64,000 nucleotides of DNA, taken from assembly GCA_949825025.1 (NCBI GenBank), contig OX463780.1:19791856-19855855 (forward strand), read 5' to 3'. This document shows, one piece after another, positions 1,731 to 62,101 of this stretch (the first letter of the stretch is position 1; each line of letters begins with the position of its first letter). The notes below the pieces were generated by a model. The model saw nothing but the letters and a program-made list of their open reading frames with translations, was not told where the DNA came from and did not search any database. A program made the position numbers and the translations under genes. The stretch is from Siphlonurus alternatus (taxonomy: Eukaryota; Arthropoda; Insecta; Ephemeroptera; Siphlonuridae).

Positions 1731-4700
1731 TAAAAAAAGCTGGTGGACCACATCTTCTCTTAAAACCCAGCCTTCGAGCCTACAATTTTATCTTATAAGC
1801 ACCATGCGGTGACATGGAATTACTTATTTGACCTTTTATAATATATATACTTCTGAGAAAAAAAAATATATATATTATAATATTTAATATACATTTTTTG
1901 TTTCCCCAGTAAATTGAAATGTTTGTATTTTAATTTTTTGTCCACTTCCAAATTTAGATTTATTTTATTTTACCGTATATAAAGTTTTTATGCATATAAA
2001 AGACTATATATTTTCTTCCCTCTGGTGTACGTTTCCTGGAGCGAAATTTCACGGTCAAGCACCCGAACTTCCGATTATTAATTAAACAGTTAAGTTCACA
2101 TCACTATCTCAACGCCGCTTATCAATAAGATTGTTTTTAATATTTGAAGTGACAGATTTGAGGAATGTAAATAAACATGTTGTGATATATATGACCCTTT
2201 TTTTTATAATTAATTGTGTTGAAACTTTACTGTTTACACCTTAAATGAACCACAAGATAAACATTAAAAATAAAATATAATGAAATTGAGGGAGTAATAA
2301 ATAATGAAAAAAAGTCAATTATAGAGCAACAGTTAAAATTAAGTTCACATGGTAAACTGCTATATATATATATATATAATTATATGCTTCCCATCTCATC
2401 CAAAAATATGAATAATTAATAGCGCCAGCCCGCTTCTCTTCTCAAATTTGCAAATCTGCAACGTCCTTTCTTCCATTTGTTCATGAAGACATACAATGAA
2501 TGAATAAATTACTTTAATTAAATTACTAAAAAATCAGTCAGAACTCGATACAGCAGGACCTATACAGTATATTATAAATACTTAAATTTTTATACTAAAC
2601 GAAAATCATTTCAGCAGACTATAATTATTACAGAATATTAATATACCAATTAATTCTCTGTAATTATTATAACTATCAAATCTGATTAAAACCATCACAC
2701 CGTCTTTATTGCAGCTCAGTAAATTTCAGCTGTGCTCAGATAATCAGATTGTCCTTTTTATAATAATTGTTTCAATCAAAATTTCAAATCGTCCTTAAAA
2801 TCTTATAAAATTTTCTAATTGGACCGTAAAGTATTGGAGGGATTGTATATTTTAAAAAAGGGGTGTTCGTATAAAGATAAAGTTTATATATAAACCCTGA
2901 ACTGTGTAGATTTTCTGCACAGTTGCCTTAAATATGCATCATGCACTTAATTACAATTATAGATAAAAGGTCAATCGTGCAGGAAATGGGCAGTGTTTAT
3001 GAACAGACCTAATACTATATAATAATAATAAAAAGTTAATAACTTAACTTAATAATAATGAAGTTACTTCAACTTCATATGACATAGACTGATTCGAAAC
3101 GTCATAACATAACTGACCACCCTGACAAACCGTTTCAATGAATCATGTGTCACGATAATAAATAATAACACAATTCTCTGATCTCTCCTTGAAATCTTGG
3201 CAAAGTTCCAAGTAACGCTAATGTGACATTTCTGTTATGACAGAAAGAAATATTATCACAATCTGCTTACATGCATGCAGAGTACTTTAACTTTCATCTA
3301 TGAATTATTGTACACTTACAATTAATTAATGTTACAACTCTAACAAGCAACGAAGTGAGCCGATGAACTCCCATATATAATTATATTGAATAGCCTGAAC
3401 ACCACTGGAACTAAATATAAATAAAAACTTTTATGTTAATTTTTTATTCAATTTGTGTATTTTTTTTTATTTTTTTACAAGGATATACACCCCTACGAGC
3501 TTGTGGAGCTCGAGGTGGAGTAATGGGTATCACTGCACTGGGTAGAAAGCAAGACAAATTTACCCCAGAGAGGGAGTAACTTAATTTTTACTTGAAACGG
3601 TCACCCATCCAAGTATTAGCTTGACTTCGGTGATCTAACGAGAACCGGTCAATGCACTGCATGCGTCACGCTTAGTAATGTATACATCAATAACATGGAA
3701 CTGAATGGAGCAGCTATTATAAAATGCAAAAAAAAAAGAGAGAATTATGTTGTTTTCTGTTTTACAAAATAATACTAACATTAATTTTATTTTCACAGTG
3801 CAGCTAAAAATATTATTGAAATATAATATAAAATAAAAGGCACACAAAGATGAATTCCCTTTTCAGATTATATTTTAACGAAACTGTAGAATTATATTTA
3901 CTAGCTAAACCCTGTATTACACGATACAATGTTGCATAACATTTTTCCTTAGAAGAAAATTTAATCTCAATTAATACTTAATACAATTAAACAAATGAAT
4001 TTGAAGTTGTCTTGTAAGGAAAAATTGTTTTCAAAATTGCACCGTGGCTTAAAGTTAAAGTATATAGACTTATTTTTTATTAATGTAATTGTAACTATTT
4101 CATGGTAAAAAATTAAAATAAAAATAACAATTTAAAAATATTGAATAAATCGTCGTTTTAACACAATAACCGGTACGTATATATAATGATTAAATATCAT
4201 GCATTTTCATGCATGCTGACGTTGCATGGAGTTTGAAAGTATTTTCATCGAGAACGAAGATTCTGAAAACAAAGCAACATTCCCAATAAAATTAATAAAT
4301 ATATAATACAGCAACAAAATATTGCATCAAATAATACTATATGCATGTACGTATAGAGGTGGCGTCAATCTTATACCAGAATATATGTAATTGTTTCAGT
4401 AACGTTAATTGTTATTTCTTCTTACAAACCAGGTTTATTGCCTTCAAGGCAGTCTATCTATATATCCAAATCGATACGCTACAATTTAGTAATCAAAAAA
4501 CGTATAGTTCAATAACCTCAAGTACTTGACTTGAGGTCGGCTCTTTTGATGTCCGTGCCACAAGAAACCACCAAACCTCCTGGCCTGCTGTCATCTCTGT
4601 TCGGGTGTTTCCGAGAAAATTCGGACCAATGAGGATTTAGGTAGTAAAATTTCCGCCAGTTAAAAACAGCGTTGGAAATCTGATGGTGCTCAATTTGATG

Positions 4701-5579: not shown

Positions 5580-8500
5580 ATGCGGCTAGTAAGAGGATTT
5601 GCTGTGTACACCGTGGTGTCTTTAGGTAAGTGGAGTTTCATTAATTATTGTACTAAAATAGTTTGTAAATATATTTAAATATTATTTATAGGAAAGGATT
5701 ATATATGATGGTGCGTTAATGGTGCTTTTATAAATAAATTATTAAATTGTGTCTATGCCAAAAATTTACTGAAATAAATTGTTAAATAACAAATTATATT
5801 TCTTATTATATATATGTATCATTCAATCAGTATAAATTATTTCTTTAATTTCAAACGTATTCTAAACAAATTATTGCAAGTAAAAATAGAAAAAAATATA
5901 TATTACTTTCTTTTCCAAAATGTAAAATAAACTTTCTCTTGAATTTTCAATTTCTAGAATACCAATTTTAAATTACATCAAAATTAGATCATTATGAACT
6001 AAATGCTATTTTAATGGAATTTCAAGAAGAACTTTTGACTTCCAAATACACTTTGACATCATATGAATTAATAAATGGTATAATATACTGTTTTTCCAAA
6101 TTAGCAAAATTTATATATGAACTTTTTATTATGTATTTATTTAACTGTAAAAAATTTATATGGGAAATTATTGAGTCGTTGTTGCACTTATTGCAGTTTA
6201 TTATTATAGTTGCTTGCAGTAGTATTTTATATTTCTTTAAAAAATATAAAAAATTCTCGTTAATAATCACGCTAAACATTTTGATCATTCCATACCATAA
6301 TTCATAATAATAATTATTATATTAATAATTCAATTTTTAATCTTTGTCTTGCAATTATATGTTTAATTGATTTAATTTTAAAGCTGCATGACATTAAAGA
6401 ATTAATCTCACAGTATAAAATCTCCCTTCCTTTTGTAATAGTATATATAGAGTTAAAAAATATTTTAATTTTCATGCTTTTAATCAAATGCATGCAAAAC
6501 CAACTTTAAAACTCTAAATTATTGCATAAAATTCAAGCATATTTTAGACATGATTCAGCTCATGTTTCAGGAATGATGGAAGTGCGTGTTAGAAAAGTAG
6601 TAATAAAACACGTCATTGTAGATATGACACGCCTTGTCTCTGTTTATGACCTTTGCAGACGGTGCCACTATTAGCAGGAGGCAAGTTAGAGCAAACCTAA
6701 AACGTTATAACATCCAGGATCATCAGTTTTCCCATCAGTACTAAGCTCCTTATCGTGGTGTTGCTCAACTTTGCGAAAGTTATTTGTCAAAATAGAGCCA
6801 TTTTATCCACAACATTTAAGACATATACACACAGCCATGGAGTTGCCACAAAATATACATTATTTAATCCCTAAATTTGATGATATTGTAATGTAATGAA
6901 GTAGAAGAAATTATTAACTATTATTAAATGGTTGAAATTTTAATCGATTATTATATACAAATAAAAAAATAATAAATTTGAATTCATAAATATAATCATG
7001 AAATTGTTATTTATGTGACACAATGTGAAATATATTTTATGTGATGGCTGATGAGTAACTATATGATCTAATTGTGAAATATCTTGTCATGACAGTTAAA
7101 TAATGCAAAATATTTAGCAAATAATAATAAAAATAAAATAAAACAATTCAATATTGTGATCGTGAAGTTTATTTGAAAGTATTACTATATTATATATGTA
7201 GATTAAATTTTCATAACGTATCAATGGCATTTTCTTACTAATAATTTAAATTTTCCGATTTTCATGTAATTATTATTTTTTTCTAGAAATCACTTTGTTT
7301 TAATGTTATTTTGTTTATTTTTTATTATTATTTTTTTTTTTTTTACAAAATATTGCAAATCATATTTTTGATGCCTGCATGTGTTTTTTTTTAATCTAAA
7401 AAAAAAAAAATAAATTTGCTAAAAAAACATTTATTATTTCATTTTCAAATTTTGTATAATGCTTAAAATGACTTTGTATTATATATATATAACCCAGGCC
7501 CTTCTTTATATAACACGGTGTAATATGGAAGGTCCTGCATGCAGGGTGTATCCCGATACCTCTTACAAATAAAGTACAATGTACGCTCCGGGATATATTC
7601 CCTCAAATAGTATTGTTCGAGCAATACATTGACGCTTGATCAGGGAATTTATCCGGGGCGACGACTGTACGCCATCAATTTTATAATCATCATTTCTGAT
7701 TACACATTTTCCTTGAATGCGACTCACGTAATGAATGACCTTCGTTTGATATTGATGTGAATGAGTCAGATATTTGAATACTAGAAGGTGTCACGTACGT
7801 GTTATAGAATAGAATGACGACACAAACTGGTCTGATTGATTTCAGTACTCCTGTCCGTGCTTATGGATGGGGTGGAGGGAAGAAGAAAAATCTTGCGAGG
7901 ACGTAAAACCATTACCCGGACCTACTACAGTAAGTATCTATGAAAGCAAAACTTAATTGTATCGCGACTGTTTTCTTTCTATTAAGGTAGAAATAACACG
8001 CCCAATGTTAATAAAAATCCCATTCATGAAAATTATGAAAAAAATTTAAAATGCCTTATCAGAAGGTAAAATATCAGCTATACAAAAACGAGCTAGTTTT
8101 TGAGTTATTAACTTTTAAAGTTGACTAATGTAACATGGAAGTTCCATTTCTCCATGTTACATTAGTGAACTTTAAAAATTAATAACTCGAAAACTAGCTC
8201 GTTTTTGTGTACCTGATATTTTAGCTACTAATAAGGTATGTAAAGGAGAACAATTTAAATTTTTTTCATAATTTTCATGAATGGGATTTTTATTAACATT
8301 GGGCGTATTATCTCTACTTAAATATATTGACGAGTAAATTGTTTTGCCATCAGAAAAAACGGAGTATTAGGTTGAATGAGATATCCTTATTCACGTCATC
8401 CTTTGAGTTTATGTATTGAATTTTGTTGCGTGTTTTTTCACTAAAAAACAAAAAAAATATCATTAAATATTGTTGTTATTAGTGCATTAATTTACTTAAA

Positions 8501-10759
8501 TGTCCTGCGAGCAGAGTTAGAAAAATAATCAGTAAATGGGGGAGGGATGGAGAAGACAGCAGAGACGGAGCACTTTTCATCAGTATTTCGTTCTGTTCTG
8601 TTATACTGGAACAAAATCAGAGAGGCTCTATAACCCACTCACAAATTTCCTTTTATGCCAAGGATGATCGAGTATAACGAGGATGACGTATACCGAGTAT
8701 CAAGAGGATGAAATAGAGAGTATCACGAGGATAGGGCATCCCTCTGCCTAGCTATTATTATCCTCGTGCAAATCCTTACCTGCCTACTTAAGATTTATCA
8801 AGCTTATTTATTATTTAGAAATTACAATGTATCGTAATTAAAATAAGGGAGAGAATTTTGTTATTATATAATATATAATATTAATTGACATTAATCTGTA
8901 ACCTTTTAAACCGGGAAAATATTGAGTAATTTTAGTATTTTCAATAAACGAAAGAATCATAAAACCGAAATATCCCTCAGCTTTTATACTTTTGAACTTC
9001 ATTCTTCACAACATAACTTTTTAAACGAATCAAATTATTCTTTGCAATTAATTAATTAATAAATCGTGGAAATAAAAACGGTTGTGTAGCCAATATAAGT
9101 GTTTTAAAAATAGAATTATAAATATATATTTATTGTACACAGATAATAATTATTGGTTGCGATTCACGAAAGAGTTACCCAGAAAGTTATCTAGCTTATC
9201 AATTTTTTAGCCTCTTTAATTGCTTTTCTTTGAGTTGTTTATCCAATGTTCCATAATCGATGCAGGAAAATCCATATGTTTATCGTTATCATTTAAAGTT
9301 GAACGTACGTTCTTTAATCAATCATGTATAATAACCACGGTGACACGGTGACACCCGAGAGCTAAATCAATTCTCAGTTATCAGGCTGTACGATTGGAAA
9401 TGAAGTGATAATTAAGTCTCTGTAATCAAAACAAGCCATTCGGGAGACAATTAAGCATGGAGCACTAATTATTGCTTGTTATGATTGTTAAGAATTAATT
9501 ATGAACAAAAGAACTCGCGTGCTTTTCCAATATTTTGTAAAATAAATTGTTTCATAAGAAAAAAATCTTATATTATCTCATTGTATTTATGAAGTAAAAA
9601 ATGAATAATTGTTCATCTGCATGCACTATTGGTTTGGTATAGTTAATATTTGTTTTAATATACATCAATTTTGAATAAAAAAAACTATTCTTATCAGTTA
9701 ATAACTACCAAAAACAATTTTACATGCTTTAATATATAAAGCTCCTTAAATAGCTATAGGATACTGATAACATTGTGTTTTATTTGAATGTAGGATTTAT
9801 ACAATTTATTTTAAAAGAAAACGTATAAAATAAATATATTTAATTGTTATCTCCAGCTATCTCAAAGCATGTGTTACCTCGAATCTTCAAACCAACTTAC
9901 TGGATGTTTGTTCGTAGAAGATTCAATACTGCCAGAGGGCAGCTTTATTACAAAATTTTTAAATTTGTTTGTATTTTTGACGTACTGTAGTTTTGATGAA
10001 ATTCTAAATCTTTTCATCAAATAATCTGATGTAGCTCACAAGAACTTACAAAGAGAGGACCCTTGATTACAAAATCAATATTAAACTGTTAGTATAGTAA
10101 AAGTAGTTTGGTTAATACTTGGTAGCTAAAAACATCTAAAAGTTTGTTACAAGTTAGATAACGACCATTTGACCTTTATATTTTACAAAGTCGGTGTTTC
10201 TTTCTCATTCCCAAATTCCAGATATAATTTATACCATTGTGTTATATAAAAAAATGATCTCATCTCTCATGAACTTTTTTTTTTTAATATTGATTTCAAA
10301 AGTTTTTTCACTGAATAAGGGGGATTATACCAAACCTATATTATATTATATTGATTGTAATAAATCTAGCAACCCGTGCAGTCCTGATGACTTTGTTTGT
10401 GTCTTTCTCCCTCGTCCTTCCCGAGCTGATGCTGAACGCCGCGCGGAGTTATCTTGTGCAGTACTATAGCTGTTCGTGGATTTGAACCGCCTATAGATAA
10501 GCTTGAATGGAGTATCGACCTCATTTTTTTTATTGCAGAAACGGATAGAGGGTGCAAAGTTATGCTATACCCTGATTTTTTTTGTAGTGATAATGTTAAT
10601 GTGTTTGTGTCCCCAGAGCCCCCAGCAATCCCCGCCTGGTCCATCGTGTTGATCGTGGGAGGAGTCATCGTGCTGTTTGGGGCCGGGCTGTACTTGGTGA
10701 TGAACCGCTTCGTGCTGGGCAGCAGTGACGAGTCGGAGCGAGAGTACCTTGGACCCTGA
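5580..10759 (+). CDS. Gene A: small type I membrane protein, 90 aa
   Basis: CDS join(5580..5625, 7846..7929, 10617..10759); both introns are phase 1 with GT-AG ends (2220 and 2691 bp region sizes, second starting at 7930). Exon 1 encodes [15 protein letters not shown]. Exon 2 completes a signal peptide ([12 protein letters not shown]) and adds a basic ectodomain of about 20 residues ([16 protein letters not shown]). Exon 3 carries a single TM helix (about residues 51-71, [17 protein letters not shown]) and a short tail [13 protein letters not shown] secreted N-terminus and cytoplasmic C-terminus are inferred. The tail ending resembles that of gene D, and the exon and phase layout is shared with B, C and D. 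An AATAAA at 10996-11001 follows the stop by about 240 bp. The start has A at -3. Not recognised from any named family; function unknown. A TTAA-flanked palindrome lies 56 bp after exon 2. Confidence 0.72.
7575..7680. repeat. Imperfect inverted repeat in gene A intron 1
   Basis: The segment around ACGCTCCGGGATATATTCCCTCAA is mirrored about 50 bp on by TCAGGGAATTTATCCGGGGCG. It may be a decayed palindromic element. No target duplication was found. Confidence 0.3.
7986..8317. mobile_element. TTAA-flanked palindromic MITE, copy 1
   Basis: This 332-bp element is nearly palindromic along its length. Left end GGTAGAAATAACACGCCCAATG is mirrored at the right end, and the arms meet near 8140-8160. 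TTAA flanks both sides (7982-7985 and 8318-8321), the target duplication of piggyBac-type transposition. It has no coding capacity. It lies in gene A intron 2, only 56 bp downstream of the exon 2 donor. Confidence 0.75.
9070..9149 (+). repeat. Short dispersed repeat, copy 1
   Basis: About 80 bp beginning AAATAAAAACGGTTGTGTAG is repeated in the same orientation at 12281-12362, with only small differences in the A+T-rich 3' part. Origin unknown; a SINE or MITE fragment is possible. Confidence 0.55.
10370..10500 (-). repeat. Possible tRNA-like SINE fragment
   Basis: On the minus strand, GGCGGTTCAAATCCACG (near 10490) resembles a pol III B box. A GC-rich body of about 110 bp follows, ending near 10370 at an AT-rich tail. 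No clear A box is present and there is only one copy here, so this is a weak call. It lies in gene A intron 2, just before exon 3. Confidence 0.3.
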
Positions 10760-16806: not shown

Positions 16807-17554
16807 ATGCAAGTTGTGAGTTTGATATGTAATGACTTAAAATTAGGAAGGTTCCCAATTGTTTATATTTATGTTTATTTAGGTAAGTACATTAATTTTT
16901 ATACCTTTATGTTGATTTAGTGTTAAAAAAGTGCAAAGTTAATGAACTTTCATCTATATATAGCTATAACCATGGCATAAAAAATACAAATTAACAATTT
17001 ATTATTAAAAAATTCTTGATGAAGAACATTTTTCTTATTATTTATCGTAATTAAAAGAGATATTGATGACAACATTATGATTTACTATGGCCAATTTCCA
17101 ATTTACCAACCTTGATGGGCCCCTAGTTTTGGCGCCAGGGTGTCTAGACGCCCGCCTTGCGTGCAGGCAAACACACCCCTCGCGGCGTGACGCCACCACA
17201 GCTGAGATCGATCACAAGCTCTTTTAATAGAAAGTGACGTCACGATGTGTGTGAACTTGGCCATGTGATGAGACTTGACCTCAGAATAAAATATTATAAA
17301 TATACAGTATGACTACCTATATACATGAATTATATATTACAAGATAAATTTTTTAAACTTTTAAAGAATTTGCTGTTTATTATATATCTCAGTGCAAACT
17401 CTATCATTGAAGGCTATAGACGCTATATAGACAATATAATGACTAAAACGTTGGCCTACTGATTTGATTTGTTTATTAATTTCGTTATTGGATCCAATTA
17501 ATACAGAAGTTCCAGTACTTCCATTTGTTGGAAAGATTGCAAATTACTCTTAAT

Positions 17555-17649
<95 letters not shown>

Positions 17650-20483
17650 CAGTGCTGCTGTGCGCGTTGTACATTTTTTTGAAGAAAAATAACTTAAATT
17701 TAATTATTTTAATGTATTTCCATTGTCATTGTTGTCCTATAATTAGGTTCAAGCCTTTAATCCCAATAATAAATTACATAAAATATGTAATATCATTAAA
17801 ATAGATACTTAAGAGATTTACATTTATGAGGATACAGATATTACAGATGGTAAAGAAAATCTATAATATAACTTATTAATAATAAGTATTTAAAGTGTGC
17901 TGAATTAATTAAAGTTTGTCCTCTGATTCGACCTTGCAGTGCTTTCGTCTCTCGTGCTCCATGGAGCTGAAGCCAAGGGAGGTGGAAGGGGAGGCGGAAG
18001 AGGAGGTGGGAGGTCCAAGAGCAGGGGATTCTATCATGGCTCGGGCTATCGTTCCGGCTATCGTAAGTTAATTTACTTCACCATTATTGCAAGACTTTTA
18101 AGTTTTTAATTCAGCATCCATTTATTTTAAAAGAGAGTGACTCTGTATGAATGTTCAAAAGTCAGTAAATAATACGAATTAAATGCAGAAACGAGGTAAC
18201 CAAACTCGAGAAATAATTGTTAAATGATTTTAATTCATTTATCATAAATGATCAATATAATTAAAAAGCTCTCATGTATTCAAAAACAGAAAAATTATTT
18301 ACTGAGAATTGAAATGTGAAAATATATTATTTTTAACGTTTATAAAAAAAAAAAAAAAAAAAAAAAAAATATGCGTAAATATTTAAAGAATTTAAAATAC
18401 TATATATGATTTTGCTTTATTTTTTTATATATTTTTTCCACTATAGATGTCAAGAAAAAAAAAAAGAATTCAAAATCTGCTAGCAGCTTTGTATAATATG
18501 TAATATTGTATACAAATCAAAGGATTGGTCTAGCTGGAAATATTTTGGAGAGATTTGGGAGTCCGACCCCCACCCACAAATTTTTACTGTGTATAAATAT
18601 CCATGCCTGATAGTCACTCTGGACACTCTGCATAGACAGCTGTTCATAATACTTTCCTAATTATATCAAGAGAGAGGAAGATGTAGATTTGTAATTTAGG
18701 GGCGGTAAAAATGTCATCACTTTTATAATCAACACCACCACGTACGCCTTCGTACTCTCCATAGATTTGTTCTACTAAGCTGTCCCGAGGTGTTCATACT
18801 TAATTAACAATTGTCTTTCAGATGGCTCGGAATTGTCTTGGTTGGCGATCCTGATGATCGTGTTGCTGTCGTTATTCGCTGCCTTGTGGGTGATAGTTTG
18901 CTTGTGCTCAGCCTGGACGACCTTACAACAAGAATTTTCAAATGAGCGGCAGGCCGCAGTCACAGAATTTCTCGCGAGCCAGCAAAGACTCCAAGAACCA
19001 GAACAACAAAATCTAAGCTACGTCTAAAGCTCAGAGGTGTCATGTAACATAATATAACATAAACTAATTAAAGTGTCTTACAGATGGCAGCGGCTCCTCG
19101 ACCAGCGATATGCCGTGGTGGAAGATCCTACTGATCTTCTTGCTGGTGATTTTTGTCGCCATCATGCTCGTGTGTATCTGCTCAGCTTGGTCATCAAGCT
19201 CCAACGACAAAGAAAACGAACCACAGGCCCGCGCAGTCTCCGAGTTCCTCGAGAGTCAGCGAAAACTCCAAGAAGAACAACAACATCGACAACAAATTCT
19301 AAATTACGTCTAGGAAAGAAAGCCTCGTTCAAAAAGTCATGTGTCTCCATAGAATGTTATAATAATATAATATAAGTAACCTATAGGCATGTAGTGCTCA
19401 TATTTCTACTGTCTTGAGGTGTTCTTGTGAAAAAAAATAACATAAATTAATTTTTAGAGTGTCTTGGAGTGTTTTGGAGATATATAGGACAACACTTTGT
19501 CGTTGTGGAAAATCACACTGATTCCTTTGCTGCTGATATTGTTGGTCTTCATGCTTATTGTGTGTATCTGCGCAGCCTGGGCAAGATACAACTACGAACA
19601 AAACGAGCGACTGGCCGCGGTCACCGAGTTTCTCGAGAATCGTCGATTACTGCAAGAACAAGTACACCGTTTAAGCTATACGTCTAGAAATTTTAAGGGA
19701 AGCGTCATTCAAAAAGTCATGTGTCTCCATAGAATGTTATAATAATATAGATAACGTCCGCAAATAAGTAACCTAGCGCTCTTCCTGCTGTCCCGAGGTG
19801 GTCATGTAAACAAATAACATTAACTAATTTTTACAGATACCGGTGGAGGTTCCAGTGGAAATTCCAGTGAATATTCCAGTGAGTTCTCGGACAGAACTTT
19901 GTCGTTGTGGAAGATCATGCTGATCCCGTTGATGGTGTACTTCATGATCATCGTGATTGTGGTGATCTGCGTAATCTGGGCAAGATACAACTACGAACAA
20001 AACGAGCGACAGGCCGCAGTCACCGAGTTTCTCGAGAATCAACGAAGACTGCAACAACAAGTACACCGTTTAAACTACGTCTAGAAAGGAAAGCGTCGTT
20101 CAAAAAGTCGCGTGTCTCCATAGAATATTATAAAATAATATAGATAACGTCCGCAAATAAGTAACCTAGCGCTCTTCCTGCTGTCCCGAGGTGGTCATGT
20201 AAACAAATAACATCAACTAATTTTTACAGACACCGGTGGAGGTTCCAGTGGAAATTCCAGTGAATATTCCAGTGAAGATTCCAGTGAGTTCTCGGCCAGA
20301 ACTTTGTCGTTGTGGAAGATCACGCTGATCCCGTTGATGGTGTACTTTATGATCATCGTGATCGTGGTGATCTGCGTAATCTGGGCCAGATACAACAACC
20401 AACAAAACGAGCGACAGGCCGCAGTCACCGAGTTTCTCGAGAATCAGCGAAGACTGCAAGAACATCGTCTAAACTATGTCTAG
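16807..20483 (+). CDS. Gene B: small type I membrane protein with five tandem last exons
   Basis: Constant part join(16807..16882, 17940..18062), then one of the terminal exons: 18822..19027, 19084..19313, 19837..20084 or 20230..20483 (19458..19687 is frame-shifted). All junctions are phase 1. With the first terminal exon the protein is 134 aa. Exon 1 and the start of exon 2 give a signal peptide ending VLSSLVLHGAEA. The ectodomain is Gly/Arg-rich (KGGGRGGGRGGGRSKSRG) and ends GYRSGYH. The terminal exon supplies a short linker, a TM helix and a tail with N-E-R-x-A-A-V-T-E-F-L. Exon 1 is the least certain part: it is supported by its GTAAGT donor, its matching phase and its likeness to exon 1 of gene C. 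The only AATAAA near the array is at 20544. Not recognised from any known family; receptor or adhesion roles would be guesswork. Confidence 0.7.
17557..17649. repeat. (TA)n microsatellite in gene B intron 1
   Basis: Long TA run with one interruption, about 90 bp. The Tyr-Ile open frame over it is a repeat artefact. Confidence 0.95.
18822..19027 (+). CDS. Gene B terminal exon 3a
   Basis: Preceded by a CTTTCAG acceptor and entered in phase 1, which makes the junction codon CAT (His). It encodes 67 further residues: linker GSELSW, a hydrophobic helix of about 25 residues starting LAILMIVLLSLF, a VCLCSAW motif at the membrane edge, then a polar Gln/Glu-rich tail with the shared NERQAAVTEFL core. 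It ends LSYV. The S-Y-V ending fits a class I PDZ ligand (inference); the sister exons end NYV. No poly(A) signal lies between this stop and exon 3b 56 bp later. Confidence 0.75.
19084..19313 (+). CDS. Gene B terminal exon 3b
   Basis: TTACAG acceptor, phase 1, 75 residues after the junction His. Linker GSGSSTSDMP, then WWKILLIFLLVIFVAIMLV as TM helix, CICSAW at the inner edge, and a charged tail that departs from the sister copies (NDKENEPQARAVSEFLESQ) before the shared NYV end. The WWK start of the helix is shared with the single terminal exon of gene C, which makes 3b the copy closest to gene C. Confidence 0.75.
19458..19687 (+). pseudogene. Gene B terminal exon 3c, frame-shifted copy
   Basis: The sequence is clearly homologous to exons 3d and 3e, but the reading frame that encodes the TM helix (from 19497) has an in-frame TAG just upstream at 19482-19484. 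No acceptor would enter it in phase 1. Near its end, one extra T relative to 3d (in AGCTATACGTCTAG) also removes the family stop from that frame. If spliced from the only good acceptor (TTTTTAG at 19451-19457) in phase 1, translation follows the other frame, which is open to the TAG at 19685. That would give a polar, Arg-rich tail with no membrane helix. Most likely a decayed copy. A soluble isoform is the alternative. Confidence 0.6.
19837..20084 (+). CDS. Gene B terminal exon 3d
   Basis: TTTTTACAG acceptor, phase 1, 81 residues after the junction His. The linker is a Ser/Glu repeat (TGGGSSGNSSEYSSEFSD) coded by 12-bp units. The TM helix starts LWKIMLIPLMVYFMIIVIVV and is followed by ICVIWARYNYEQ and the shared NERQAAVTEFLENQRRLQ amphipathic tail ending NYV. 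Very close to 3e over the whole exon and the preceding intron, so one is a recent copy of the other. Confidence 0.75.
20230..20483 (+). CDS. Gene B terminal exon 3e
   Basis: TTTTTACAG acceptor. The junction codon is CAC instead of CAT, still His. It encodes 83 further residues. It differs from 3d chiefly by one more 12-bp linker unit (giving SSEYSSEDSSEF), by NNQQ for NYEQ after the helix, and by loss of three residues before the NYV end. It is the last copy and the only one followed closely by a poly(A) signal, so transcripts using the earlier copies may carry this exon in their 3' UTR. Confidence 0.75.
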
Positions 20484-20543: not shown

Positions 20544-20549
20544 AATAAA
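20544..20549 (+). terminator. Poly(A) signal of gene B
   Basis: AATAAA 61 bp after the stop of exon 3e. No AATAAA is found between exons 3a, 3b, 3c, 3d and 3e. Confidence 0.6.
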
Positions 20550-24509: not shown

Positions 24510-26117
24510 ATGCATTGTTTACTCTCAAGTTCACAAGTGCAGTATAACTCAAGACGACACTTGTTTGTTTATTTTTGCACTTACTTGGGTAAGTACAATT
24601 CATTTTTATATCATAATTATAAAATATTTATATATTTTTGTTTTCAAAAATATATTATATACATAATTCTGAGTATATTATAGACACTAAATAAAATTTG
24701 AAAAATTCTTGTTTAAATTGCAATTTTTACTAAAAGAAGAGGCTAAAAAACAATATTTTGACGTGGCTGAATTCCAATTTGCTGTAATACTTGCTAAAAG
24801 GGTGCAGAGAGGGGTGCGGGGGCGTCACCCCTGCTGCCGTGTGTCTAGACTCAATGCTCGCTTTGCCCTTGATAGAGAGCATGACGTGCAAATTTCCATT
24901 ACCTTATTATTTCACAGATTTTAATGTTCACATTGATCTTGCTTTAGGATTTTATGACGGGAGTCACATCCTCTCTTGTCAAATGGAAATATAACAAACT
25001 AAGCCGAGGTACTTTAAAAAAATGCCACTAAATTTAAACCATTATAATTACATCATTTCGATTATAATACTTTGTTCAAATTGATTTATATTTATAGAGT
25101 AATATTATTTTATAATATATTTTTGGTACACCATGCAGAATGATAATTACATTTAATACATTTTATTTACTCCTGCATGAGAAGCATCTAGAAGAGTCTT
25201 TGCAATTTTAATATTACCAATGATGCTATTTATTTAAGTGTATATTCCTCATGCAGAGAGGTGTAAATATATATTATGCTTATTAATTATTCTCCAAAGT
25301 TTTATCTTTCTATAAAATTATTGAAAAATTGTAGTGAAGAAACACATTTAACATCGAAATTAGTTAAATATTTGAAACTAGACTACAGAAACTAGCAATA
25401 AAATAGTCAGTTATCCAATTTATTTTTTTTTAAATTTTTAATCAAACCCTGTTGGGTACTTTTATTTACTAATTACATACTACTTTGAAACCCCGAACCT
25501 TCCGAAACCCTAACTTGAGCGTTTCGCGGGCTCTTCCGGAACGGGGGCGGCCACGGCCTTGCAAATCCATCCCGGCATTTGCCTGCGGCTGAGGGAAACG
25601 TGGAAACCTCAGCCAGGATGGACGCTACAGCTTTTGTCAATGAACCGGAAGTGCAATGGTCCAAAGCCAGGGGAACCACATAGTGGAAAAGCGCAACGAT
25701 TTACCCCTGGGTGGGAAACGTGGTTTTTGTTGAAAATGGTCACCCATCCAACTACTAACCACGCGCGGCGTTGCTTGACTTCGGTGATCTGACGAGACCA
25801 GGTCAAGCGCACTGCGCCACACCTCCCAATTTATTTTACACAATAAACTAAAATCTATAATAATCTAGTAAGAAAATGTCTCAATTTTCCTGTAAATCTA
25901 ATAATAACATAATAAATTAATATAAGAGCTATAAATAATATAAAGTGACGTAACATTTTATAGGGGATTTTCTTAAAGAACTTTTAGCATAAATTTTAGC
26001 TTAAAAATTTTTAGTACTATAATAAGAATCACACTTTATGACAAATTTTGATACTAAAAATTTCTTGACTATAATCTATGCAATCTATGCTATACGTTCT
26101 TTGTAAACCATATTTTG

Positions 26118-26172
<55 letters not shown>

Positions 26173-29100
26173 TTTAATGTCCCGTTAACATGTTTTTGCA
26201 CGGTTGCAAAAACACTACTACCAAAATTCATTAAATGCAACTGTTATTATTTATAATAACAATAATTTATTTTTAAAAAATTCTCGACAAAGCTTCAACT
26301 GAGATATAGAGACAATGAATGACTTTTTCTATCAGGATCAATACTCCATCCAACTTAAAAAACAGTATCTTTTTTTAATTTGTTTATTCGTCAAAAAGAG
26401 GCAAATATATTATTACATAAAATTGTACAGTTTATACCTCAAGAGCTTAGAAAACTCGTAAACGGGGAACTTGAGTTCAAATTTGGTAAATACACGACAA
26501 AGTAGCAAATCACATTTAAATATCATTAGAATGTAATGCAGCCGTTTCTATTTGCCCCATATTATAGGCTCTTATGTTTTCTCTTTATTGTATTTTCAGC
26601 CTATGAAAAATTTAATATATAATAAAATAATAAACAAATTGTGACACTGCTTAAAAAATTATACATTTCAATAAGAATAATATATACAACAGATAATTAG
26701 TAAAACTAGATCAACTATCAACTTATTGCTTATTTAGAATGACATATAATTATGATTAAAATAACAAGAGCTCTATTATATTATATACATATACAACTTA
26801 AGATATAAAAAAAAAAAACAGTGAAAATATTTTATTATAATTAATATTTTTTTTTAATTATACCAAAACAAAATACCCAGCAATCCCAGCATGAATAAAG
26901 TAACAAAATAAATATTTCTATATTTTAAATTTAGCTGTAAAATTTAGTTCTGAGACACTAAATAATTTATTGTAAGTTGCTTGGTCATGTATTAATCCCA
27001 GTAGATAAATAGTCTATAATTATAACATTATTGAGGAAAAATTTATTATTATACCTTGATATCTGCATGATAATTCGAAAAAGAGTTCCAATTTCCAACT
27101 GATATATTATATTTCTTATCTGATGGACTAGCTGATGGTATCAGTTACATTATGTATAAACTTTCCAGTCGTCAAAGAAAAAGTCAATTAATTTGTTATC
27201 TTAAAACTTAATTTTATAGTTTCTATCTACAGTAAATTTTAAAGATAATAATATGGATCGTATTTCCCTTGGCATAGCTAAAATAGTAAAATTTTAAAAA
27301 AAAAAAGTGATGAGAAGTAAAAACCCAATTTCTTAATTTACAGGTAAATAATTATTATAAAATTGTGTATTTTTAATACTTGAAGTATTGTATTTTCCTC
27401 GCCTCGTTTTATGAATGCCAACTGCGTGGGAGAATACTGCAGACAACAGGTTTTATTCATTGCATCGCTGCCAATATGTTTCAATAAATGAATAACAAAT
27501 TCATTCAAATGTAACGATATTTTTATGTATGATTCTGCCTGTTTTGTGTAAAAACAAGATCACTACATTACATGTAAAGTACAAAAAATAAATAAAAAAA
27601 TGAAATAAAAAAATACAGCATAAAAATTTGATTTATTATTATTATAAACGTTGTTAATATTTTCCATTTAAATATTAAAAACATGCGTGAACATTTTAGT
27701 ATTCGTGTTGTGGACATGTTATACATGTTGTGGACATGTATTACACAGTTTAAGAAACTTCCGTCGCACCCAAATATTTTTACCTACAGCATTGGAAGGA
27801 CGGCTATAAATTAATCAGTTATATAGTGCCTGTGCTTCTATAGCCATTCATGCCAAATATTTATTTTGACGCAAAAGAGCAAACTTTGACATTTTATGGA
27901 AGGTGATTGCATCTTAAAAGCACTTTTTTTAATATACTCACAGGTGCTATACGTTAAATTCAATTTTTCTCACAAAAAAAACAACGTACGCGACGACGTA
28001 TTATGGTGTAAAAAATAACATTTTAAATACTCTTGATGATTATAGCACGTGTTATATGTTAATAGTTATTTTATTGACTATCATGTTTTTAATCCCATCC
28101 AATATAATTGTTAAATTTTATGCATATTATATAATATAATTTAAAAAAAAAACATGTATCTTCACCTAAAAAATGAGGTATTTATTTATATGTTCAAAAT
28201 CTAAATTGTAAATATAATGTAAGGCATTAAAAATAAGCTCTAGTTTTGTATTTTGTATTTTTTTTAAAGGTAGAGATAACACGGATCAGCTGGCCCAATG
28301 CTAAAAAAATCCCATTCATAAAAATTATGAAAAAAAAATTAAAATGTTCTCCTTTACATCCCCTATCAGTAGGTAAAATATGATAAAATATCAGGTATAC
28401 AAAAACGAGCTAGTTTTCGAGTTGTAAGTTGAGGAAAACGCAAATTGCATACCTATCAGGAAAACGTAGCTTTATGAGAATGAAGCCTCCAGAAGGTTTC
28501 CTCTTTGCGGATGTGCGTCACGTCAGGGAGTCGATATAATTGTGCGTGCTTGCAGTGTTGACGCCGCTGGTGCTACATGGCGCCTTGGGCCAGGGCGCCG
28601 GTATGGGAGGCGCCTCCAAGGTGGCTACCAGCTACAAGTCTTACCACTACGTATCAAGCCACAGCGGATACCGTAAGTTGCACCTAGTAACACCATTAAC
28701 CTGACTAATTAATTAGTTAATTATAAGTTTATTATAAGTCCCATGTTGTTTACTGTGAAATTATAATATTATATATGAAATTATTACATGAAAGAGCTAT
28801 GAACTTATATTTAATAATTAATTAATAATATTTTATTAAGTAGCGCAACCTATAGTAAAGTGATGGAACATGTGGAAGTACTTTTCCGTAATCTTTAGTT
28901 ATGTGAGAACTTTATATGTACTGTATTTAATATTTATGAATTTATATTCGTATATTTAAAATATTATACAGAAAAAAAATGTAGCCTCAAAAATCAGATA
29001 ATATTATATATGTATAATTAATGTCCATGTATTATGTATTTTTTGGTGCAAGATGCATATAGTATTTATAAATTAAGTAATTAAAATCATCATGATGAAA

Positions 29101-31692
29101 GATATTATATATATTATATAATATTATATATTATTTCTTATTTTTTATTTGTATTAAATATTAATTACATCTCTTGCTCTTAAATAACCAAGTTCATTTA
29201 CATTACAACAACGACGGTAAAGTTTTGTGAATTTATCTGACAAGACCTTTTATACTTAAATTTCACTCACTACTGAACATTTTAATTATATTTTATAAAT
29301 CGATTTAATAATAATTGGATTAATGATATCTTCATAAAAGTAATTAAATAACCAACACAAAAAAGGAACAAAATGACGATGACTTTTTAAAACGAAGACC
29401 AGGGAGTTCCAAACTTCAAATTTATATATAAAATCAATTTATTTAATTAATACAGTTAAGCTATGCATATTATGAATAATGATGTTACAATGTCAGATGT
29501 ACGCATTATAGGCACAATTATTATAAATTAGATCGTCAATAACGAACTATCATATTTTTTAAAAATAGCCGGCGGCCTTCTTCATTTAGTATATTATATA
29601 ATGAATATAACTCAGGCAAACTTTTACATTCTTATTTGTTAATAGAAAAATTATATAAATATATCTTTAAAAAAATGAAGAATCTCTGCTTAAAATTGTA
29701 TAATAAAAAAGTGTAATGGTAAAAAATGGAGTCGTTTCTCGTATTTCGTCGGGTGCTTTAAACATAATATTTATATATACAATATGACGATATGAAAGTT
29801 CATATAATCAGCTTGCAGCAATTTAATTGCTAAAATTTTTGACTAATTTATTAATAAAGAAAGTTTATTGCATGCTGATCATCGAATATACAAGATCATA
29901 CTATATATAATACGAAGCACTGGTTGGTATTCAGCGTTTTCTTTGGCGATCGACTCCTGCTGGGCTGCAACCAGCATTTCCTTGGCATGACAAAATCCTC
30001 CATTATATAAGTTGCAGAACTGCATTATGCTCTCACTTGCGATAAAGATTATATTTACTAATAATCAAGCTTTCTTGAACATAAAAAAAAGGAAAGTGTT
30101 AACATTATTAAGATGCTCTTTTTTAAAGTTAATGGGAAGCATCCAGAAATTTAAGCGCTATAATTACTATACATCCATCATGATTCTAAGCTATATATAT
30201 GAACTCCTCTATACCTGATGAGAGTGCTGAGTAGAATTTATAGGAAAAAAGTCTCTGGCTACTTACGTCGTTCTCTCTCATTATTGCGAAAAGCAGCACA
30301 CAATGAAGAAATTGACTGCTGACGTCATTCTTTACAGTCATAAAAATTAATCCTGCCGTTAAAGAGAAAAGGATCGAAAGTCGTACTTGATTGAGTCTGC
30401 ATGCAGCAAAAGCGTAGGTACGCAAGAGAAGTTAGAACAATGTAGTGAAAATAATTTTATGTTTTTACCTGTATGCCCTGCATGCGTCGTCATTCTTATA
30501 ATACCTGCCATGTTAAATTTCATTGTCTTATCAATACGATGCTTTGGTGTGCTCACATTCAACAGTGGGTACAGAGTGTACAAGAACTCCCTCTCCATGT
30601 TGTCCAAATATAAGGGGGAAAAAATAGACCCAACCCCTTTGCCATCTGATACTTAATTTTAATTATATATAGTTAAATGATCTCCAAAATTATTTTTAAG
30701 CTTATTTATGACTGAATCTGCATCTATAACCAAGGAAGGGGGTCAATCTCGTCTCCATATACTTATACATATAATATTATAATTATATGTTATAGATAAG
30801 GAGGTGATTTTTAGGTCTATAATGCATGCGCTTGAGGAACTCGCATGCAGCATATCTAGCGCGCAGCTCCTCAATCCATCCATGGAAGATTGGTGGAAGA
30901 GGGTGGAGGAGAAGATTTTATAAAAATCGTTACATATAATTATCTATCAATGACTGAATTACATTAATTATATAGATGTGACTCGCACTGTAAAAGAAGG
31001 CATACCTAATACAGTCAAACAAGCGAGAGTTTACGCCTAAAAATTTCCGGAAGTGATGTAAATTACGTACTTCGGATTTTATTTAGCTCGCTATTGGAAG
31101 CGGAAATCGGTAGAAAACGTGTGTCATTTCTGGAAAATTTCAGACGTGAACTCTAGCTTGTTTGACTGTAATAGAGACTTTATTGTGAGATATTTTTCGT
31201 GTTTGTGATGTATTCAGTTATTGATAGACAATATGTAACGATATTCCTCATTTAGCCAGTCGTGAGCATTCACGATGAAAACTAAATAAGATGCGATGGC
31301 CCATGTTGAAGGATCAGGCGCGGATCCAGGGGGGGGGGGGCTGGGGGAGCTGCAGCCCCCCTCCCCCCGAAATTTTGGATTTAACATGGGCAGTATAGGC
31401 ATTTCCCCACTCCAAATTTTTTTTTTTGGATCCGCGCCTGAGAAGGACCACTTTCGTCAGCTACTAATTTATTTCCCATGTCCCTACAGACTCGGCTGGA
31501 GACCGCGGTCGCAGTGAGAGTGGTGACCTGTCGTGGTGGAAGATCCTACTGATCGTGCTGCTGGTACTTCTTGTGGCGGTGATCATCGTGGTGCTCTGCT
31601 CTGCTTGGAGCAGAATCTCGCGAGAAGAGAACGAACGGGAGGCCGCAGTCACCGCTTACCTTCGAAGTCAGCGTGAGCAGCCAGCTGTCTAA
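24510..31692 (+). CDS. Gene C: small type I membrane protein, 132 aa, paralog of B
   Basis: CDS join(24510..24588, 28556..28672, 31490..31692), phase 1 at both introns. Exon 1 ends RHLFVYFCTYL and exon 2 continues VLTPLVLHGALG, together a signal peptide; gene B has RFPIVYIYVYL and VLSSLVLHGAEA at the same places. The ectodomain is Gly/Ser/Tyr-rich and ends VSSHSGYH. Exon 3 has a linker with Arg and Glu, then SWWKILLIVLLVLLVAVIIV as TM helix, VLCSAW, and a tail with ENEREAAVTAYL ending QPAV. Unlike gene B it has a single terminal exon. AATAAA follows at 31843-31848. Exons 2 and 3 are well supported; exon 1 rests on phase, donor and likeness to gene B. Start codon has A at -3. Function unknown. 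Confidence 0.68.
25460..25828 (-). repeat. 5S-rRNA-derived SINE, full-length copy
   Basis: On the minus strand the head contains TGGCGCAGTGC, then GATCACCGAAGTCAAGC and GTGGTTAGTAGTTGGATGGG, which align with the 5S rRNA internal promoter region. A body of about 200 bp follows, shared with the copy at 44256. It lies in gene C intron 1. The open frames over it are artefacts. Confidence 0.8.
26120..26165. repeat. (TA)n microsatellite in gene C intron 1
   Basis: Pure TA run ending in a short CA run. Confidence 0.95.
27706..27745. repeat. Short tandem duplication
   Basis: TGTTGTGGACATGT occurs twice about 19 bp apart. Confidence 0.6.
28268..28430. mobile_element. TTAA-flanked MITE, truncated copy 2
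   Basis: Left half only of the palindromic family seen at 7986, 33052 and 43627. It starts after TTAA (28264-28267) with AGGTAGAGATAACACGGATC and stops near the palindrome centre. It is closest to the copy at 43627. It lies in gene C intron 1, about 125 bp before exon 2. Confidence 0.7.
31012..31168. mobile_element. Mariner-like MITE with TA flanks
   Basis: 157-bp element with inverted ends CAGTCAAACAAGC and GCTTGTTTGACTG, flanked by TA on both sides (31010-31011 and 31169-31170). Similarity between the arms continues about 25 bp inward. TA duplication and CAGT-type ends point to the Tc1/mariner group. It has no coding capacity and lies in gene C intron 2. Confidence 0.75.
31315..31440. mobile_element. 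hAT-like MITE just before gene C exon 3
   Basis: 126 bp with perfect 13-bp inverted ends CAGGCGCGGATCC and GGATCCGCGCCTG, an internal G run and a T run. The 8-bp flanks (TGAAGGAT and AGAAGGAC) match at six positions, as an old hAT-type target duplication would. The element ends 49 bp before exon 3. Confidence 0.65.
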
Positions 31693-44290: not shown

Positions 44291-44664
44291 GGATACACCC
44301 CTAAGAGCTTACAGCTCGCGGCGGGGTACTGGGTAGGGATAAGGTAGGGAACGGATAGTGGCCACGGCCTGCATGCTTACGCGTCCCAGCATTCGCTGAG
44401 GTGAGACTGAGGGAACCGTGGAAAACCTCAGTCAGGACGGACACCTCTACTTTTTCTCAATGGACCAAAGCGATGTCCAAAGCCTGGGGAACCACACACA
44501 AGTACATCACTGCACTGGGTGGAAAGCGAGACGAATTTACCCCAGGGAGGGAGCAGCGTATTTTTTACTTGAAACGGTCACCCATCCAAGTACTAACCAC
44601 GCTCGACGTAGCCTGACTTCGGTGATCTAACGAGAACCGGTCAATGCACTGCGCCACGCTCGAC
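44256..44664 (-). repeat. 5S-rRNA-derived SINE, longest copy
   Basis: On the minus strand it runs from GTGGCGCAGTGC and the 5S-like GTGGTTAGTACTTGGATGGG through a body of about 300 bp to GTATCCTTGT and a poly(A) tail (the T run at 44258-44286). It matches 5S rRNA better than the other copies in the TAGTACTTGGATGGG block, so it is probably the youngest of the three. Confidence 0.82.
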
Positions 44665-47050: not shown

Positions 47051-50000
47051 ATGGGGGTCCTGAGGCCCAGCCTTCTTGCACTCTGCGCCCTCACAATTTT
47101 GCGTAAGTATATCTTTTTAAAATGAGATAACGTTTCCTTGATGAATTTCTAACACGAAGTTCATGCAATAACTTTGTGTAGAAAGTAGAAACATTCTTAT
47201 AGAAGAAAATACACATCTTATATATTATACAGTACATATATCGATTTAATGTTTTATTATTATAATAATAATTCATTCTAATTTTAGAATATTATAATAT
47301 ATTTTAATTTCAAATTTTCATTTGTAAGCATTATTATCCATAATAATTATATTGTGTTACTTAAATTTAAAAAATATATATATTATATATATATGCGTGT
47401 TATGTCAGGAATGTTTTAATATGGACTATTTATAGTTATAAATTATAATGAAATTACGATATGTAATTTTATGTAAATTAACTTATTTTATATTTTAATT
47501 TATGTATTGTTTTTATGATAAACAATATAATTATAATTTGATTAATTTATTTTTGTAATTGTTAGTGCGTAGTTTATGTATAATGGTGTTGCAAAATAAT
47601 GTGAATCATATCAAGTATTTTATGTTAATAATTTTATTTTTAACTTACTTGTGGACTTATAATTGATTATATATTATTATACTTCCGTGTTTCATAATAT
47701 TTATTGAATTATATAAGCATGCAGGGAAAAAAGTGCGATAACCAGTGCCCATGCTATATATATTAACATAACTGTACGACAGTGTACGTAGGACGTAAAT
47801 ATATAGGATATGCACAAGTTGATTAAATTTGTTATATTTTTCATTATATTTATTATTCATCATGATTTTGCTAGATTATAAAAATATATAAATATATTTT
47901 AGGAGATTCTAACACAGCTAGTCCACGTGCACATTGTTGTGGTTGCAAAAAAAAAAAAAAAAAAAAATGAAAACTAATTAGATTGATGATGCATAATTTT
48001 GGTGACTTCATTAACTTTTGTAAAAATGTCAATGTTTTTGCCTGGAGGAAATCAACGAGTGATAATTTTACAGGCGCATATACAACCATACTTTGTTTAA
48101 AAAAATCAAGAAATTAATATTTTTTAGTGCAAGAAGATTATCGTGCAATTTACTCCTATAGCTTGTGTTTCAGTTTTTTCGGCTTGTTTGCTGGATGAGG
48201 TTGAGGCAAAGAATAAAGTCGGCAAACTCGTGAAGAATGCAGCCAAGGGCTACACAGCGCACAGTGAGTATGAATGCAAAGTAGCAGAGTGAATGTATAA
48301 TACTTAATGAAACATACCTTTATCTATAACAGGAATAAAAATCCCGAGCAACTTAAGCGTGTGGTATATAAAGTTTCATACTTTATGGCTAAATGGCTTG
48401 CCTTCTTAAACCTTTTTTTTTTTTTTTTTTGAAGCTGTGTTTAGACTGTTTAGATATATTTTTAAACTAATTTTAAATTTAAATTGATGCATTTTTTATT
48501 TTCTTTTGAGTTCCGTGACGTAATATTATCTTTAAATTCTATAAAATTTACTTTGATATTCATATATACTTTTTTACCAAACACGCAAGTAAACAATAAG
48601 CAATGGGCTTACGGGGTGTAATTTTTTTACTGGCTCAATCAAAAGAGGAGGTCGAAAAATAACCCTTAGATTTTTTTGCGATTTTTTTAGCACTGCATCA
48701 TACCTATAATGGAGATTAAAAATGTCTCTTGACCTGGAGGCTCCATCCGCAACGCCTATGACGTCACTACATTCTTTGGGTCAACTATAGAACACTTGTA
48801 AAAAATTATTGCATTGTTGGTTGTTTATTAAAAATAATCATTTGTTTCCATAGCAACGTGTTTGTTTAGAAACATTATATAGTTGACCCAAAGAATGTAA
48901 TGACGTCATAGGCGTTGCGGATGGAGCCTCTAGGTCAAGAGATATTTTTAATCTCCATTCTAGGTATGATGCAGTGCTTAAAAAAATCGCAAAAAAATCT
49001 AAGGGATATTTTTCGACCTCCTCTTTTGATTGAGCCAGTAAAAAAATGACACCCCGTAAGCCCATTCACACCTATAATATATATTTTATAAAGAGAGCTT
49101 AAATATTAAAGTAGAGTAACTTGAAATACAATCCACTTCGTTTGCTGATAAACTCTTAACAGCAAGCGAATTGTTGAATTATTACTTGCATCATAAACAG
49201 AATATGCAGCCATTTAAATTTGTCATCATTCATTTCATAATTACTTAGGCTTTATTTAAAATCACCGTCATTAATTCTTCCATTCATGCTTTATTTTCTT
49301 CTCGATATAATATACTGTATACTATCTTTTAGGCTCATTGAATGGGCGTTAGAGGGATTTTAAAGCATATAATTTAATTTACCAATACTCGGTTTGTAAA
49401 TATCTCGTGCTTAAAATCGATATACCTGGTTGGTAAATTTATAGTTTATAAAATACTTCGTCAGCGGCAACAAGTTTTGCTGATACCATAAAGGTGCAAA
49501 TAGCCTCTGCTCTCACGCTATTTGGCAAACTATTCCAGACCTCCTTTTTTTTTTTTTTTTTTTCTTCTTCTTCTTCATGGTTAACATTATTCACTTTCTT
49601 AAAGCAAATGTCATTGTATATATAAATATACAGAGTACAATTCGAATAAAGAAGTTTTTATAAAAGTATTCTGTCAGCTTAATATTAATTAAAAAGATAC
49701 TACGATACAATACATAATATGTTTTCTATTTTGCTGAATAATAATAAAAAATAGAGCTATTATATTTCAAATTGAAATTTTTCTACAGAAACTTGTGTTC
49801 TTTCTTAAAATTTGATTTTTCATTTCTATAACTATAATTTCACATTACACTACGATGCTGGGATTAAAAAAGAAAGTGTAGTTACGTTATGATTCCGACT
49901 GTCCTGAGATATGTGATATACACTCGAGCAATTAATATTAGTCCACCATGCCTGATCATCTTGCCTTGAGCTAATTGCAAGTTCAGCTTACTTGTTAGTG

Positions 50001-50516
50001 CACTATCATCACTTGAAGATGCAATGTCGGATCGCTTTGCCCCTGTTGATATGACATGTCATCTACATGCTCTATTTGGATGCTCAACAAGTTGCCTAAC
50101 CTCAAGGCGAGATCTGATGTCTTAGCAGACCCGGTAGACCGGTAAGAGAGAGGCCAGTCAGGGACATAATATAATATTAGGCATTACAGGCATCAGGTGT
50201 CACCTAGAAGGGGGCCTGCCACTTTATGTATGTGCTCTACGGGTTAAAAATTGGAGGGGCCAGTCAGGTATCCCTGACCCAGCCTTATGGTCAGTCAGAG
50301 CTTATAGCAGATATTAAGGTAATGGAGGATTCAACCTCCTTGATCACGCGTGTTTCAGGAGCTGCGAGGGCCGGCATGTCAATATTCCGAATCATCTTCA
50401 TGGTGATCGCTGGAGTGGTGGCCATCATTGCCGTGGCCGCGTGTGTCATGTTCGTGCGTCGTCGCCTGCGATCCAGCGAAAGTGAAGGATTCGGCCTACT
50501 CCACAACGGACCCTGA
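47051..50516 (+). CDS. Gene D: small type I membrane protein, 99 aa
   Basis: CDS join(47051..47102, 48174..48263, 50359..50516), phase 1 at both introns, donors GTAAGT and GTGAGT. Exon 1 MGVLRPSLLALCALTIL plus exon 2 LFSACLLDEVEA form a signal peptide. The ectodomain is short and Lys-rich (KNKVGKLVKNAAKGYTAH). Exon 3 gives a small linker, a TM helix (about residues 58-79, IIFMVIAGVVAIIAVAACVM), a stop-transfer RRRLR and a tail SSESEGFGLLHNGP. The tail parallels gene A ([12 protein letters not shown]), which marks D as its closest relative here. The start has A at -3 and G at +4. The first AATAAA downstream is at 51024, about 508 bp on. No known family recognised. Confidence 0.74.
48602..49066. 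mobile_element. Long palindromic MITE in gene D intron 2
   Basis: 465 bp whose two arms (AATGGGCTTACGGGGTGT and its complement at the ends) are highly similar over about 200 bp each. The centre near 48810-48860 is unpaired. Each arm holds one perfect cAMP response element core TGACGTCA (48759-48766 and 48901-48908). Target duplication not resolved. Confidence 0.75.

Positions 50517-53165: not shown

Positions 53166-62101
<8,936 letters not shown>

Follow-up and report, generated by a model that had tools for sequence, protein, structure and literature searches.

Does a very small membrane-protein gene draw its membrane anchor from a row of tandem terminal exons while its N-terminus stays fixed? 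The question is raised by gene B, which lies in the 64-kb stretch of mayfly DNA analysed here (the window) and for which an earlier note had described five homologous terminal exons behind one constant N-terminus.

Exon structure of gene B

The constant part of gene B comprises two exons on the + strand. Exon 1 (16807..16882) contains the start codon and the first half of a predicted signal peptide, ends in phase 1 and is followed immediately by GTAAGT; its product is MQVVSLICNDLKLGRFPIVYIYVYLVLSSLVLHGAEA. Exon 2 (17940..18062), with the product KGGGRGGGRGGGRSKSRGFYHGSGYRSGY, encodes the end of the signal peptide, which was called by eye and from hydrophobicity, and a Gly/Arg-rich ectodomain. 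The GTAAGT that follows exon 2 is the single donor of the array. In tblastn searches of the 64-kb window, no second exon 1 of gene B was matched, and the only other exon 2 was that of a paralog, gene C.

Downstream of this donor, five homologous segments are arranged head to tail. Both the translations and the tblastn matches within the window agreed with the initial description, the copies being homologous well beyond chance (E 1.2e-5 to 7.9e-43). Four of the five copies have their own acceptor, the same phase and their own stop. These are c1 (18822..19027, 206 bp), which encodes a short linker, a transmembrane helix and a tail; c2 (19084..19313, 230 bp); c4 (19837..20084, 248 bp), which has a long Ser/Gly linker; and c5 (20230..20483, 254 bp), which shares 94% amino-acid identity with c4 over 80 codons. 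All are on the + strand, all encode a helix and all are entered in phase 1 at a His codon (CAT, CAT, CAT and CAC, respectively). Their lengths differ by multiples of three. When joined to exons 1 and 2, c1, c2, c4 and c5 translate to open frames of 134, 142, 148 and 150 aa. The acceptor coordinates given previously for the five copies, 18821, 19083, 19457, 19836 and 20229, were exact. Gene B is accordingly a case of tandem homologous terminal exons behind shared upstream exons.

The remaining segment, c3 (19458..19687, + strand), is broken as an anchor. In the frame of the transmembrane helix a TAG precedes the helix, and a two-base length difference from c4, a short insertion, shifts the frame of the end. 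None of the 11 AGs in 19330-19560, each joined to exon 2, yielded the c3 helix. The AG at 19457 opens a frame of 76 residues that contains no helix; splicing of c3 at this site could make a soluble or secreted form.

Copy-specific first exons were considered and rejected: tblastn detected no exon 1 or exon 2 between the copies, and the intervening gaps, 56-149 bp, are too small. With neither constant exon repeated in these gaps, every copy has to be reached from the donor at 18062.

Coding constraint and predicted splicing

Comparison of c4 and c5 revealed changes at 8 of 52 synonymous and 5 of 188 nonsynonymous sites (dN/dS 0.16, Fisher p 0.0016), and the two copies are under purifying selection. 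By their sequences they are a recent duplication, with 137 of 143 aligned noncoding bases equal between their units. Such likeness might also be left by collapsed or duplicated haplotypes, making the array an artefact of assembly. However, about half of the residues are different when c1 and c2 are compared with one another or with c4 and c5, and the repeat is a short unit of ~400 bp with no long duplicated contig end; we regard an artefact as highly improbable.

The older live pairs gave higher ratios: 0.54 for c1-c2, 0.74 for c2-c4, 0.82 for c2-c5, 0.99 for c1-c4 and 0.92 for c1-c5; that of c2 versus gene C was 0.38. For the broken c3 versus c4, 9 of 42 synonymous and 27 of 150 nonsynonymous sites were changed (dN/dS 0.84, p 0.66), and the values for c3 versus c1, c2 and c5 (0.55, 0.63 and 0.59) were no higher than those of live pairs. 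Between old copies, pairwise dN/dS is poor evidence of constraint, and by itself it proves constraint for c4 and c5 only. The coding case for c1 and c2 is drawn instead from the lengths of the intact copies, with their differences in multiples of three, and from the keeping of their frames. Under simulated neutral evolution, with intron base composition and substitutions as the sole changes (4000 runs per case), a c1-, c2- or c5-like frame survived with its stop in 15-16% of runs at 0.1 changes per site, in 3-5% at 0.2 and in 0.5-0.7% at 0.4. Coding constraint on all four intact copies, c1, c2, c4 and c5, is likely on these grounds.

The only canonical AATAAA between 17900 and 20800 is at 20544..20549 (+ strand), behind the last copy, where the earlier note had placed it. 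Variant signals are also present: AATATA occurs after each of c1-c4 (at 19051, 19364/19369, 19744 and 20137), and ATTAAA occurs at 19067, within the c2 acceptor region.

We propose that gene B probably encodes type I membrane proteins of ~134-150 aa that have a common N-terminus and end in one of four tandem terminal exons. All isoforms would possess a signal peptide, predicted to be cleaved, and a short Gly/Arg-rich ectodomain facing outward. Assuming that the locus is transcribed and that several acceptors are used, as its sequence suggests, the donor at 18062 would be spliced to one of c1, c2, c4 or c5, which would supply the linker, the transmembrane helix, the tail and the stop. The chosen acceptor would fix the protein: upstream copies would leave with the intron and downstream copies would become 3' UTR, with a putative shared 3' end at the AATAAA at 20544 or a cut at a weak AATATA. 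Because a terminal exon needs no donor, competition between tandem acceptors would yield one anchor per mRNA, and the copies would be mutually exclusive without special machinery. The suggestion of a single transcript family is supported by the lone donor, the exon anatomy and, in part, the selection data.

A simpler possibility is that a single copy is really used, most likely c5, or c4 together with c5, the others being older or decaying duplicates of which c3 is furthest gone. The broken c3, the dN/dS values of 0.74-0.99 for c1 and c2 versus c4 and c5, and the presence of the canonical AATAAA behind c5 only are all consistent with such decay. By contrast, c1 and c2 have retained frame, phase, His, helix, tail motif and stop despite changes in about half of their residues, and at 0.4 changes per site the simulation puts chance retention of the frame at the lowest of its three levels. 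We consider single-copy use unlikely. The isoform might also be set by alternative polyadenylation at the AATATA sites, and not by acceptor choice alone, which would be a compatible variant of the model of tandem terminal exons. The AATATA behind the first four copies and the ATTAAA at 19067 make separate 3' ends possible, and long 3' UTRs would be avoided. These signals are nevertheless weak, have in part been copied along with the repeat unit and are expected in DNA of 63-72% AT, and the canonical signal is found only at 20544. Such a contribution of polyadenylation is conceivable, if not the expectation.

The acceptors are modest in pyrimidines (9-10 of 17) in all five copies, including the broken c3. 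A conserved block, GAGGTG(T/G)TCATG, sits 35-50 nt upstream of every acceptor on the + strand, at 18787..18798 for c1, at 19034 for c2, where it is one base shorter, and at 19416, 19795 and 20188 for the others. With one mismatch allowed, four array copies were the sole matches to it in the window. The block may be a splicing element or merely part of the duplicated unit. Docking and selector pairing of the Dscam type was not supported when the block before each copy, an element of our own choosing, was compared with intron 2, exon 2 and the downstream flank: of the resulting pairing energies (5 copies x 3 regions), none was better than the best of 15 shuffles, and some beat the median.

The anchors differ mainly in their extracellular linkers and helices. 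The residues ahead of the helix number 7 in c1, 14 in c2, 26 in c4 and 30 in c5, and c1 and c2 each encode two Cys residues, as against one in c4 and c5. A hydrophobic 21-residue segment was found in each of the seven terminal exons examined (c1, c2, c4, c5 and those of genes A, C and D; KD 2.5-3.6). Variation is greatest in the linker length and in the helix together with the adjoining juxtamembrane Cys, whereas the tail core around NERQAAVTEFL...QRRLQ is common to all copies, is largely kept in gene C and is recognisable in Cloeon. The tail signal would therefore be less affected by exon choice than the spacing and the anchor. The earlier view that splicing swaps both anchor and tail would fit the anchor but is too strong for the tail, the motif of which is kept in every copy.

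The gene cluster, its protein family and the history of the array

Gene B clusters with genes A and C and probably with gene D. The four genes are in tandem on the + strand and each has three exons and phase-1 introns. Gene A (5580..10759; exons 5580-5625, 7846-7929 and 10617-10759) encodes 90 aa, gene C (24510..31692; exons 24510-24588, 28556-28672 and 31490-31692) 132 aa with a His junction, and gene D (47051..50516; exons 47051-47102, 48174-48263 and 50359-50516) 99 aa. Each has one terminal exon; no extra copies for A, C or D were found in the window, so that the array is confined to gene B and paralog C has the single terminal exon formerly ascribed to it. Genes A and D are tentative members. 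In transmembrane alignments versus 300 shuffles, the best score for A was z 5.2 (A-C) and the best for D z 3.9 (D-B5), with 2.8 for A-D; because their sequence likeness to B and C is weak, the membership of A and D rests mostly on layout. The ectodomain of gene D, which is downstream of UTP15 and had no place in the earlier note, contains VEAKNK....

UTP15 (36222-41350, - strand) is located between genes C and D. Queried as hand-joined exons, its best match was in Ephemera danica (62%), followed by Neocloeon triangulifer (57%), Cloeon dipterum (56%) and then Timema stick insects and others, among the best 120 of 363 proteins at E <=1e-60; these matches point to a mayfly other than E. danica as the most likely source of the window. 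Linkage of the gene family to UTP15 may be old, as judged from Cloeon UTP15 and LOC135940821. A duplication of B and C as whole genes with long noncoding stretches was not borne out: blastn matches were mainly exon-linked, together with AT-rich ones of weak E.

Several other features of the window were recorded. An inverted-repeat element at 7969-8304, in gene A intron 2, has a copy at 28254-28423, in gene C intron 1 (blastn 72-84%), and looks like a small transposon. A second repeated element, matched by eye between 25514-25830, 44359-44627 and about 3480-3680, is presumably SINE-like; it had no Rfam match. An intron of UTP15 contains two copies of a GGATGC/GCATCC-rich repeat (37977-38201 and 38763-39056). 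Two near-alike Cys-containing reading frames (...VCRC) are found 3 kb apart on the + strand, at 60284-60457 and 63295-63489; they are possibly tandem exons of another gene. Searches of the window for RNA genes returned no Rfam and no tRNA match.

A profile search, with scoring limited to the 7991 candidates that had the most words in common, returned 39 proteins at E <=1. These included four from Cloeon dipterum: P0002, P0003, P0004 (LOC135940821) and P0007. P0002, which was in the profile, scored 5.8e-40 and P0003, from outside the profile, 1.5e-28. Gene B matched P0002 at 1.6e-3 with phmmer, and tblastn of P0002 against the window gave 2.5e-6; the transmembrane and tail regions are homologous. 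The four Cloeon proteins resemble gene B in having a signal peptide, an AKGGGRGGG-type ectodomain, a (W)WK...TM segment and a DE(R/Q).A.V...L..Q tail. In contrast to the gene B isoforms, their N-termini differ and their tails are longer, as known here from the proteins alone. From these differing N-termini, the family in Cloeon apparently grew by gene duplication and not through a terminal-exon array.

No Pfam match above cut-off was obtained for B (c5 form), C, A, the terminal-exon frame of D, P0001 or P0002, and the tested members of the family are orphans in this sense. We take the RGG stretch of gene B to resemble the Shadoo/prion family, for which a Pfam model exists. In a search whose filters drop most weak matches, that family was not among the hits listed for B (c5), C, P0001 and P0002 at E values up to 10.

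In a protein tree with the Cloeon sequences on the opposite side, c1-c5 were grouped to the exclusion of gene C (84/88), and c3-c5 formed a group at 98/99. Trees that placed C with c1, with c2 or with both were 4.0-4.2 log units worse and were not rejected (AU p 0.08-0.09). Expansion of the array after the split of B and C, as previously asserted, is moderately supported: it is favoured by the grouping, not proven.

Among related proteins, P0001, P0005, P0009 and P0033 possess similar PPPY tails and differing transmembrane segments. P0005 and P0009 share 58 of 58 N-terminal and 96 of 99 tail residues, whereas their transmembrane segments agree at 12 of 26 positions (Fisher p 1.6e-11); for P0001 and P0005 the corresponding counts are 58/58, 82/99 and 9/26. 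P0033 starts with the same residues as P0001, lacks the ectodomain and continues into a further, different helix and a tail that is similar. With segment borders set on P0005, the transmembrane segment was the least similar part in all 21 pairs of seven proteins, by a small margin where the N-terminal overlap was short (P0033 overlaps five of the other six proteins by 6 residues). It is common for transmembrane helices to diverge more quickly than the rest of a protein. Alternative transmembrane exons are one reading of P0001, P0005 and P0009; paralogs whose ends had undergone conversion would show the same pattern. A broader proposal, which we put forward tentatively and with more doubt than conviction, is that the membrane anchor is the diversifying part of the family, that exon choice couples a constant signal peptide and ectodomain to alternative helices, and that such coupling arose more than once, in the mayfly array and in the relatives, where central transmembrane segments would be swapped between identical ends.

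Comparison with known systems

The best-known splice diversity of an arthropod surface protein, that of Dscam1, affects the outside part. The earlier note had taken Dscam1 as its example of tandem alternative exons. Clusters of this type consist of internal exons with an acceptor and a donor, whereas the gene B copies end in a stop and need no downstream exon; the tandem terminal exons of pip and PGRP-LC are closer models. PGRP-LC reportedly keeps its inside part constant and varies the outside, a topology opposite to that predicted for gene B, in which the outside would be constant and the anchor would vary. If the proposed model is true, gene B would be a compact test case for the contribution of a transmembrane helix and its linker to sorting, clustering or partner choice, and a simple case for how one among tandem acceptors gets chosen.

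In the excerpted text of PMC9013439, pip is listed among duplications in UTRs and, like gene B, has constant upstream exons followed by homologous terminal exons in tandem, of which each transcript carries one (as would those of gene B). The pip product is a sulfotransferase, whereas the gene B exon encodes the linker, membrane helix and tail of a protein of ~140 aa. The same excerpts present Drosophila PGRP-LC as a membrane-protein gene that chooses among variable 3' regions, as gene B would. Competing RNA structures are reported for PGRP-LC; for gene B, no docking pairing was found in the regions compared. According to the portion of PMC1397879 at hand, exon 17 of Dscam encodes the transmembrane domain and has two variants, so that tandem alternative exons exchange a membrane anchor, as we propose for gene B. 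That exon is internal, with donor and acceptor, and its two variants belong to a large Ig receptor; the gene B exons are terminal, four are intact and the protein is tiny. Judged by titles and abstract openings, none of the papers listed in literature searches announced gene B or a mayfly terminal-exon array, or tandem terminal exons and alternative anchors occurring together in so small a protein whose ectodomain is fixed. Each of the two components is already known, tandem terminal exons from pip and PGRP-LC and alternative anchors from Dscam exon 17.
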